DNA from: Candidatus Cloacimonadota bacterium | GTDB taxonomy: Bacteria > Cloacimonadota > Cloacimonadia > Cloacimonadales > Cloacimonadaceae | DNA length: 48,379 nucleotides | Direction: 5' to 3' | NCBI GenBank assembly: GCA_012522635.1 | Contig: JAAYKA010000132.1 | Location: forward strand, 1 to 48,379 | Shown: piece by piece, positions 9,238-48,373 of the stretch | Numbering within the stretch: the stretch's first letter is position 1 | Layout: every line of letters begins with the position of its first letter | Made by a program: the position numbers and the translations under genes | Notes under the pieces: generated by a model | The model's input: only the letters and a program-made list of their open reading frames with translations | Database searches by the model: none | Told to the model about the DNA's origin: nothing

Positions 9238-9319
9238 AAGCCCATAAACTGTTGCCTCCTGGGTTTTTACCGACTTGTCACAAAGTCTTGGTATCACAGA
9301 ATAATAAAAAACCCGCTTA

Positions 9320-9388
9320 GTCCCAAAGCTTTGTCTAACTTATAATTACCTTTTCAAACATAAGGAAGACATAAGGGGGCAAGAGGGC
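9320..9388 (+). repeat. Dispersed intergenic repeat, copy A
   Basis: This is one of three related copies of roughly 70 bases in the window, all in the same orientation (others at 24020 and 34554). The shared core is 'CAAAG..CTTTGT' followed by 'CTTATAAT' and then 'CAAACATAAGG...ACATAAGG.GGCAAG'. This copy lacks the short 'CCTAAAC' insertion between CAAAG and CTTTG. It lies between the convergent lipoprotein and HU genes. Confidence 0.75.
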
Positions 9389-17763: not shown

Positions 17764-17834
17764 GGTCGGCTCGGGTTTGGGTGTGTATTTACATAACTTG
17801 GGTGGTCGGAGGCACATTTTTATTGCCTTGGCCT

Positions 17835-17860
17835 GGATTCTTCGCTACGCTCAGAATGAC
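17835..17860 (-). repeat. Palindromic GTCATTC-type element, copy 2
   Basis: Read on the minus strand it is GTCATTCTGAGCGTAGCGAA followed by GAATCC. Arms ATTCT and AGAAT pair. Confidence 0.7.
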
Positions 17861-17913
17861 GGACTTGTTCGGGGTTATATGCTGGTTGGCGGAGGTGGGC
17901 GGTTGGTAGAACA

Positions 17914-17957
17914 TTGTGCCAGATGAATCTGGCACCTACGACCGGATGAATCCGGTG
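17914..17957 (-). repeat. Paired-hairpin element (minus orientation)
   Basis: Read on the minus strand it contains hairpin 1, ACCGGA-TTCA-TCCGGT, an 'CGTAG'-type linker and hairpin 2, GTGCCAGA-TTCA-TCTGGCAC. Three more copies lie at 48021, 48122 and 48261 on the plus strand. The flanking sequence to 18012 also matches 47966-48020 in inverted orientation. Confidence 0.85.
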
Positions 17958-18033
17958 TTCCAACTCGCTATTCCGCAGTTAGTTAGCAACCTTTTTGAAC
18001 CCTAAAACGTTAAGACGCAAAACCCTAAAACGT

Positions 18034-18077
18034 AATCCCTTTTTCATCTTCATCATCCTGTGCATCCCTAATCTATT
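18034..18077. repeat. 44-bp direct repeat, first copy
   Basis: It runs from AATCCCTTTTTCAT to CCCTAATCTATT and matches 18224-18267 with a single difference (CTTC for CCTC). The two copies are 190 bases apart. Confidence 0.85.
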
Positions 18078-18091
18078 AAGAATCACGGGCT

Positions 18092-18118
18092 GGATTCTTC
18101 GCTGACGCTCAGAATGAC
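18092..18118 (-). repeat. Palindromic GTCATTC-type element, copy 3
   Basis: Read on the minus strand: GTCATTCTGAGCGTCAGCGA then AGAATCC. It is the same as copy 2 with one inserted base in the loop. Confidence 0.7.
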
Positions 18119-18223
18119 GCGCAGCGGAACGATAAAACCCCACAACCCTAAAATCAGCGTTATCGGCATAATCTGCGTGACACCCCAAAACGATAAAACG
18201 TTAAAACGCTACAACCCAAGAAT

Positions 18224-18267
18224 AATCCCTTTTTCATCCTCATCATCCTGTGCATCCCTAATCTATT
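18224..18267. repeat. 44-bp direct repeat, second copy
   Basis: This is the second copy of the sequence at 18034-18077, with one base difference. Confidence 0.85.
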
Positions 18268-23310: not shown

Positions 23311-24030
23311 ATGCCATCACTATACGTTCCAGAACTGGAGGAGCTGGCTTCCGGCGATAAATTTCGGCTGGAAGGAGAGGAATTCCACCACCTTGCCCAC
23401 GTCACCAAACGCCGTATCGAAGCGCCCATCCTGCTCAATTCAGGACAGGGAACCCTGGCTTGGGCTCTGGTGGAAAATCTGGCGGCAAAACACGCCCTGT
23501 TACACATCCAAAGTCTGGAAAAAACACCTCCATCAGAACGCCCGTTCGCCATTGGCTTCGCCCTGCTAAAAAACAGGCACGATGAGCTTTTGGTGGAAAA
23601 ATGCAGTGAACTGGGCGTGACGGATTTGTTTCCTTTAATAGCGGAAAGGTCGGTGAGGCGTTCAGCGGAACTGACACGTTTTTCCCGTGTCAGCCTGGCT
23701 GCCATCAAACAATGTGACAACCCCTGGCTGCCAAGATTACATGGGATTTTGGCTTTGGAGGAAGCGTTAAAAGCCATCCACGAAGCGGGATACAGCCCCA
23801 TTTTGTGTTCCGAACGCAGGGATGGACGCTGGCTGGCGGAATTTGAACCCCAGCTTAAACCCTGTTTTCTGATTGGTCCCGAAGGCGGTTGGGATGATGC
23901 GGAATTTTCCCTGATGGAAGCTCTGCCCCGGCTCAAGTTGGCAAACTTGGTGACCAGAGCGGAAACAGCGGCAATCACAGCGGCGGCGCAATGGCAGGGT
24001 TTGATGAATATTAATCCATCAAAGCCCTAA
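23311..24030 (+). CDS. rsmE: 16S rRNA (uracil1498-N3)-methyltransferase RsmE
   Basis: RsmE methylates U1498 in the decoding site of 16S rRNA. The 239-residue protein has a SPOUT fold with 'FLIGPEGGWDDAEFSLME' near residue 190 and the knot segment 'LVTRAETAAITAAAQW' near residue 215, which matches the family's 'LRAETA' element. The N-terminal PUA-like domain is recognisable from 'FHHLAHVTKRR'. It begins 3 bases after the dnaJ stop, so it is part of the heat-shock operon. The last codons overlap a dispersed repeat (copy B), so the sequence end 'NPSKP' is repeat-derived. Confidence 0.94.
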   Translation: MPSLYVPELEELASGDKFRLEGEEFHHLAHVTKRRIEAPILLNSGQGTLAWALVENLAAKHALLHIQSLEKTPPSERPFAIGFALLKNRHDELLVEKCSELGVTDLFPLIAERSVRRSAELTRFSRVSLAAIKQCDNPWLPRLHGILALEEALKAIHEAGYSPILCSERRDGRWLAEFEPQLKPCFLIGPEGGWDDAEFSLMEALPRLKLANLVTRAETAAITAAAQWQGLMNINPSKP

Positions 24031-24091
24031 ACCTTTGTCTACCTTATAATTGCCTTTTCAAACATAAGGGATACATAAGGCGGCAAGCAAG
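24020..24091 (+). repeat. Dispersed intergenic repeat, copy B
   Basis: This copy spans the rsmE stop codon and lies between the convergent rsmE and coaE genes. It has the full core 'CAAAGCCCTAAACCTTTGTC', then CCTTATAATTGCC and 'CAAACATAAGG', then 'ACATAAGGCGGCAAG'. The inverted pair CCTTAT...ATAAGG could form a hairpin. Confidence 0.8.
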
Positions 24092-24151
24092 AGACACCAT
24101 CCATACATTATTGTAAACGATTATCAGATGGTTGAATACTCGGCGTAAATG

Positions 24152-34553: not shown

Positions 34554-34629
34554 GTCCCAAAGCCTTAAACCTTTGTGTCGCTTAACTTTGCTTTTAAAAC
34601 ATAAGGGTGACATAAGGCGGCGACCAAGA
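34554..34629 (+). repeat. Dispersed intergenic repeat, copy C
   Basis: This copy lies between the Omp28-like gene and tRNA-Leu, in the same orientation as copies A and B. It has the 'GTCCCAAAGC' start shared with copy A, and the 'CTTAAACCTTTGTG' and 'ACATAAGGCGGC' blocks shared with copy B. Confidence 0.75.
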
Positions 34630-47884: not shown

Positions 47885-47943
47885 TGCGGATTTCATTTGA
47901 ATAGCTTGGGAATACACAGGAAAATGATGATGAAAAGGATGTG

Positions 47944-47977
47944 GCGTTTTATCGTTTTATCGTTTTAACGTTTTAGA
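47944..47977 (+). repeat. Short tandem CGTTTTA/T repeat
   Basis: Four units of 8 bases (CGTTTTAT, CGTTTTAT, CGTTTTAA, CGTTTTAG). The inverse AAAACG runs recur near 18001-18035 and 18185-18212. Confidence 0.75.
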
Positions 47978-48020
47978 GTTCAAATAGCTTGCTAACTAAC
48001 TGCGGAATAGCGAGTTGGAA

Positions 48021-48064
48021 CACCGGATTCATCCGGTCGTAGGTGCCGAATTCATTCGGCACAA
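48021..48064 (+). repeat. Paired-hairpin element, plus copy 1
   Basis: Hairpin 1 ACCGGA-TTCA-TCCGGT, linker CGTAG, hairpin 2 GTGCCGAA-TTCA-TTCGGCAC, then AATG. The upstream 55 bases also match the inverted copy at 17.9 kb. Confidence 0.9.
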
Positions 48065-48121
48065 TGTCCTTTCGACCACCCAACTCCGCCCACCACCACC
48101 CAAACCCCGAGCTTGGAGGAA

Positions 48122-48165
48122 CACCGGATTCATCCGGTCGTAGGTGCCAGATTCATCTGGCACAA
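48122..48165 (+). repeat. Paired-hairpin element, plus copy 2
   Basis: Hairpin 1 as in copy 1; hairpin 2 is GTGCCAGA-TTCA-TCTGGCAC. Compared with copies 1 and 3, two stem pairs change together (GC to AT, AT to GC), preserving pairing. Confidence 0.9.
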
Positions 48166-48220
48166 TGTTCTTTCAACCACCCAAACTCCGCCCACGACCA
48201 CCCAAACCCAGGCCAGACGC

Positions 48221-48246
48221 GTCATTCCGAGTGAAACGAGGAATCC
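48221..48246 (+). repeat. Palindromic GTCATTC-type element, copy 4
   Basis: GTCATTCCGAGTGAAACGAG followed by GAATCC. Arms ATTCC and GGAAT pair; copies 2 and 3 have ATTCT and AGAAT, a compensatory change. Confidence 0.7.
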
Positions 48247-48260
48247 AGCCCGTGCCGGAG

Positions 48261-48303
48261 CACCGGATTCATCCGGTCGTAGGTGCCGAATTCATTCGGC
48301 ACA
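48261..48303 (+). repeat. Paired-hairpin element, plus copy 3
   Basis: Same hairpins as plus copy 1 (ACCGGA-TTCA-TCCGGT and GTGCCGAA-TTCA-TTCGGCAC). It lies 139 bases after copy 2. Confidence 0.9.
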
Positions 48304-48327
48304 AAGAGGAAAACACGCCACCTTTTT

Positions 48328-48373
48328 CCACCGGATAAATCCGGCGGTCCGACCGGTTGAAACCGGTGTTCCC
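48328..48373 (-). repeat. Diverged paired-hairpin element in minus orientation
   Basis: Read on the minus strand it is GGAACACCGGT-TTCA-ACCGGT, a CGGACCG linker, and CCGGA-TTTA-TCCGG. It aligns with the plus copies ('GGAACACCGGA-TTCA-TCCGGT') with an A-T pair swapped to T-A in the stem. Confidence 0.65.

Follow-up and report, generated by a model that had tools for sequence, protein, structure and literature searches.

The paired hairpins in this stretch of DNA raise the question of what kind of repeat they are, whether their fold is conserved and which agent could have spread them. The window, i.e., the whole stretch of 48,379 nucleotides from a Candidatus Cloacimonadota bacterium that was analyzed, contains five copies of a two-hairpin module. 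Their positions, as given in the original prediction, were confirmed by matches to a covariance model (R1) and by the sequence, as was the count of nine TTCA loops out of ten, the remaining loop being TTTA in hairpin 2 (HP2) of the inverted copy. Chance is not an explanation, since CCGGATNAATCCGG occurs 17 times in the window at ≤2 mismatches versus 1.4 expected, a number reached in 0 of 100 shuffles. The features are the following:

17913-17962, minus strand: two-hairpin module, copy 1 (R1 match of 82.1 bits, and sequence), with hairpin 1 (HP1) at 17941-17956, linker CGTAG at 17936-17940, HP2 at 17916-17935 and foot GGAAC at 17957-17961
48016-48065, plus strand: two-hairpin module, copy 2 (R1 match of 78.0 bits), with foot GGAAC at 48017-48021, HP1 at 48022-48037, CGTAG at 48038-48042 and HP2 at 48043-48062 (GAA/TTC variant)
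48066-48112, plus strand: type-1 tail (AATGTCCTTTCGACCACCCAACTCCGCCCACC...)
48117-48166, plus strand: two-hairpin module, copy 3 (R1 match of 81.7 bits), with HP1 at 48123-48138 and HP2 at 48144-48163
48167-48213, plus strand: second type-1 tail
48256-48305, plus strand: two-hairpin module, copy 4, left half of a complete inverted doublet (R1 match of 75.6 bits), with foot GGAGC at 48257-48261, HP1 at 48262-48277 and HP2 at 48283-48302
48325-48373, minus strand: diverged inverted partner module, right half of the doublet (R1 match of 48.0 bits), with the HP2' core at 48331-48344, HP1' at 48352-48367 and foot GGAAC (minus strand) at 48368-48372
48257-48372, no strand assigned: complete REPIN-like unit, two modules inverted to each other (DNA and RNA folds)

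Each module consists of a foot, HP1 with six pairs, a 5-nt linker and HP2 with eight pairs, and the whole core reads GGAAC-ACCGGATTCATCCGGT-CGTWG-GTGCCAGATTCATCTGGCAC, with TTYA loops. In the own draft genome (1.84 Mb in 152 contigs, 95.8% complete) a mismatch-tolerant scan recovered 40 core copies, with GGAAC (28), GGAGC (10) or GGAAT (2) as the foot and mostly CGTAG or CGTTG as the linker. Ten modules are followed by a diverged inverted module, composed of HP2' CCGGATAAATCCGG, HP1' ACCGGTTGAAACCGGT and the foot GTTCC, with nine gaps of 26-36 nt and one of 71 nt; 28 are followed by a type-1 tail instead, and two by neither. There are thus ten complete units of ~115 nt, including the last one of the window, and these inverted doublets are able to form one long hairpin; the other 30 copies lie outside complete doublets. 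In the single strand of 48257-48372, HP1 and HP1' pair to form an outer stem of 23 nt that encloses the hairpins HP2 and HP2', and none of 200 shuffles was as stable as the computed DNA fold (-35.4 kcal/mol, z -6.7) or RNA fold (-64.2, z -8.0). This layout matches that of a REPIN (PMC3116915), but with two hairpins per half.

A lack of further copies in the genome had been named as a result that would speak against a repeat family. The search with the covariance model gave 55 matches, counting inverted partners, next to the 40 core copies and 47 BLAST matches. The copies are scattered over intergenic loci of many contigs, forming tandem arrays and mosaics regardless of how the neighboring genes are oriented, and 38 of the 40 lie outside ORFs of 200+ aa, compared to random positions in the same loci, 75% of which fall inside. 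Like REPs and REPINs, the repeat is thus a short imperfect palindrome in many intergenic copies. In addition, 14 of the 40 copies are located ≤500 bp from a contig end (8% expected, P 2e-6), an enrichment indicating that the repeats break the assembly.

Other repeats were observed as well. CGTC-tagged repeats (CGTCATTCYGAGCG...CGAAGAATCCAG) are found at 48220-48251 (+), 17830-17861 (-), 18088-18119 (-) and 17737 (+), with 49 short-core matches in 238 kb of repeat-bearing loci, shuffled among the hairpin modules; CGTC repeats are described without a known transposase (De Nocera 2013, PMC3733652). AT-rich mosaic units (TTAATAGATTAGGGATGCACAGGATGATGAAGATGAAAAAGGGATT, then AAACGTTTTAACG runs; 18033-18077, 18223-18267 and 47920-47980) stand ahead of some modules, in the window and elsewhere in the genome. 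Three similar stretches of ~80 nt with TTTGTCTAACTTATAATTACCTTTTCAAACATAAGG...ACATAAGG (9303-9388, 24007-24092 and 34558-34629) are perhaps a shared promoter or regulator site.

The compensated variants of the second stem and the swap from A-T to T-A in hairpin 1, from which selection for the folded form had been concluded, are present as described. Within the genome, 98.8% of the stem cells are paired, with 13 double-changed cells, five pairs showing double changes, one G-U and few unpaired cells. A few copies do carry a mismatch, so compensation of the stem changes is not complete. The core CCGAATTCATTCGG is found in HP1 of two copies and in HP2 of four, and CCGGTTTCAACCGG, the standard form in the inverted partner, in HP1 of two copies, and one copy is a hybrid that has a mismatch. 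Likewise, the inverted partner has the T-A variant of hairpin 1 as its standard form. Stem variants travel as whole hairpin cores, and exchange or palindrome correction would yield the same pattern without stepwise selection. As much of the covariation reflects whole-hairpin exchange, the conclusion of selection is too strong for this genome, and in general hairpin covariation in one genome may stem from such exchange, and not only from selection on folded RNA.

Across species, the fold itself fares better. In 123 matches from sampled Cloacimonadota genomes, 12 of the 14 pairs show double changes (204 cells), and 97.3% of cells are paired versus ≤45.5% for shifted partners. Because it was fitted to the model, the alignment is biased in favor of the latter, and 6 of 500 shuffles reached the number of double-changed pairs; it is the size of the covariation effect that supports a conserved fold. 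At the sequence level, such conservation would fit DNA and RNA alike as the acting form.

The original prediction had noted that no transposase or RAYT gene is present in the window, and had left the spreading agent unknown. Indeed, family, protein and profile searches found no RAYT/Y1 gene in the window or the 1.84-Mb draft. Among relatives, PF01797 (Y1_Tnp) is present in 62 of 80 genomes, and in seven of them (G001, G003, G010, G034, G064, G066 and G068), all from the same family as the genome of the window, a Y1 (HUH) transposase gene lies between R1 modules that are at most about 100 bp away on either side. The proposed search for a RAYT gene whose own flanks carry the hairpins (a REPtron) was thus positive in these seven relatives, but not in the own genome. 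In G001, the gene (L056, 8705-9373, minus strand) encodes a protein of 222 aa with NHLH and YIRNNP motifs, which scores 89.6 bits against NCBIfam NF047646 (cut-off 80) and 29.9 bits against the IS200 model (cut-off 55), matches E. coli TnpA_REP (4er8) weakly (E 0.007), and has the same repeat, GGAGCACCGGATTTATCCGGTCGTAGGTGCCAGATTCATCTGGCAC, on both flanks. The other six share this layout, each with its own version of the repeat; the reading frame contains one stop codon in G034 and two in G064.

In a tree of 60 Y1 proteins, the seven repeat-flanked RAYTs group together in a clade with eight members (SH-aLRT 100). Five clade members match NF047646, and the G001 score for this model, the HUH motif (NHLH/NHVH) and Y-x3-NP (YIRNNP/YIRQNP) identify the clade enzymes, of 211-222 aa, as RAYT proteins. 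R1 matches at E<1e-4 were obtained for 7 of the 8 clade loci and for 0 of 52 other Y1 loci (Fisher P 2e-8, for sequences that are not independent). The eighth member, G072, is flanked by hairpins CTCTGTC-TTCA-GACGGAG behind a GTAGC/GTAAC foot, with the same loop and a near-canonical tag. Repeat lineages follow the RAYT lineages, as seen for G003/G010 and for G034/G066/G068. As related species carry a matching transposase between copies of the same repeat, the agent most likely belongs to a known enzyme class, present in relatives and not in the own draft; this identification extends REP/RAYT pairs to an uncultured phylum.

In Cloacimonadota, other RAYT lineages (Y1 gene flanks L154, L158 and L155) have different tandem hairpins next to them, many with AGGA/GGGA or TCCT/TCCC loops, so that the phylum seems to harbor several RAYT-repeat pairs that have not been described. 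A more distant RAYT (L143, on contig 267 of G017) lies within an array of ~125-nt units whose R1 matches are weak and alternate in orientation.

We consider it highly probable (roughly 0.86) that the hairpins belong to a RAYT (TnpA_REP) system as its REP-type units, a module and its inverted copy making up the full REPIN-like unit. The unit would fold while the DNA is single-stranded, for instance on the lagging-strand template, and a Y1 HUH transposase from the RAYT clade of the sister genomes would recognize foot and hairpin, cut, and move or copy the unit into other intergenic sites. Recombination would afterwards shuffle modules, tails and neighboring repeats, leading to mosaic arrays such as 47966-48373. 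Against this reading stand the missing RAYT in the own draft, the GT[AG]G that is not kept before HP1, the limited number of complete doublets (10 of 40 modules) and the R1 matches in genomes lacking the clade RAYT.

Shuffling is also central to an explanation that dispenses with the enzyme, in which recombination, slippage and palindrome correction alone spread the repeats as a passive mosaic that lies next to RAYT genes for historical reasons. The mixing of modules, tails and CGTC-type repeats, the swapping of whole hairpin cores between positions and a draft without RAYT all agree with this, but the scatter of intergenic loci over many contigs, the two-sided flanking specific to one RAYT clade and the parallel repeat and RAYT lineages do not, and we regard it as unlikely. 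The suggestion that the element is REP-like or MITE-like holds up in its first half, given the inverted doublets, the intergenic placement, the dozens of copies and, in relatives, a cognate RAYT lying between the same hairpins. A MITE of a classical (DDE) insertion sequence, with terminal inverted repeats GGAACACCGG...CCGGTGTTCC and a transposase acting in trans, would account for a complete unit of about 115 bp with inverted ends; yet in seven relatives it is a Y1 gene and not a DDE gene that lies between the repeats, and the conservation of single halves and two-hairpin modules does not depend on the full inverted repeat, making this reading very improbable.

The modules could also be kept as RNA elements (3' UTR stabilizers, attenuators or protein-binding hairpins), with the fold selected in RNA, as REPs elsewhere have been proposed to act in mRNA (PMC3733652) and the RNA fold is very stable with conserved loops. 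Tandem arrays and mosaics that occur whatever the orientation of the neighboring genes are difficult to reconcile with such a role, 13 double changes versus one G-U pair in the genome are unlike typical RNA drift, Rfam recovered two tRNAs only and no match for the modules in the window, and the link to one transposase clade would be left unexplained. We judge such a role in RNA to be rather improbable.

Protein and profile searches revealed no relic of the RAYT gene in the own genome, although a six-frame search did recover RAYT in relatives. As no RAYT is detectable in the draft and the repeats cluster at contig ends, the gene has probably been lost or lies in an assembly gap, and the copies may either be relics or rely on an enzyme outside the draft. 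Of 125 genomes of the phylum, 25 have R1 matches, and 22 of these belong to the same family. In the comparison with RAYT occurrence, all eight genomes with the clade RAYT have R1 matches, and so do 20 of 72 without it, suggesting that repeat and enzyme are often separated or that some weak matches derive from other hairpin families. Among 84,980 named species genomes, the exact core was found in only one record, the MAG of Candidatus Cloacimonadota bacterium isolate AS06rmzACSIP_72 (JAAYEF010000017.1; contig 13 of G001), a congener of the genome of the window in the same phylum.

No pair of filled and empty sites was found at the loci compared. The hrcA upstream regions of seven congeners gave no confident R1 match (best 8.5 bits, E 0.54), but do not represent a clean empty site because the catalase match beside hrcA is also absent there, and two other flanking genes were unsuitable, one belonging to a multi-copy paralog family and one being present only in this genome. 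In viral contigs, 14 loose pattern matches were treated as chance; two contigs share an equal-scoring match at 26.5 bits, and the one of them that was inspected looks unrelated.

None of the papers searched deals with both Cloacimonadota and repetitive extragenic palindromes. By definition, a REP combines a 5' GT[AG]G with a palindrome (PMC3686654). Here, HP1 is preceded by a GGAA/GGAG foot instead. GTAG (19) or GTTG (18) does precede HP2 in the own genome, whereas the RAYT-flanking units of G003, G010, G034, G066 and G068 have neither there, and GTAGC/GTAAC feet are seen in G072, G018, G004 and G069. The WQ motif of guide-reading RAYTs, adjacent to the residues that bind the guide, is likewise altered in 7 of the 8 clade members, with W followed by F, Y or N; Q is found only in G072, which combines it with the GTAG-like tag, a single contrast on the tree and a lead only. 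It is conceivable, though doubtful, that within one RAYT clade the tag switched from GTAG/GTAA to GGAA/GGAG, the Q of WQ (among the known guide-contacting residues) was replaced and the recognized unit became a double hairpin. If so, this would constitute a natural experiment on guide reading by RAYT, which related RAYT-repeat pairs with differing tags make testable.

In comparison with known systems, the repeat shares with REPINs and GTAG REPs of RAYT/TnpA_REP (Bertels and Rainey 2011, PMC3116915; Nunvar 2010, PMC2817692; De Nocera 2013, PMC3733652) the short palindromes in inverted doublets, the intergenic location, the dozens of copies and a RAYT flanked by its cognate repeat, and a Pseudomonas entomophila REP with a GGATTCATCC hairpin has a similar TTCA-type loop (PMC2817692, table). 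It differs in the GGAA/GGAG foot before HP1, the two hairpins per half and the phylum, Cloacimonadota, which is unnamed in the texts searched. MITEs of IS200/IS605 also combine a Y1 HUH transposase with hairpins at the ends, but the enzyme found here passes the RAYT model and not that of IS200. Loss of the tag is not unprecedented, as RAYTs with atypical flanking hairpins that lack GT[AG]G have been reported for TnpA_Y1 subclass 2.6 and class 3 (Quentin 2018, PMC6006769). Subclass 2.7, with YI[LR][NQ]NP and a median of 213 aa (PMC6006769), resembles the clade in motif and length, and the WF, WY or WN in place of WQ sets seven of the eight clade members apart from subclasses 2.6 and 2.7. The repeat thus fails strict GT[AG]G membership, but is RAYT-associated and probably works like a REPIN.
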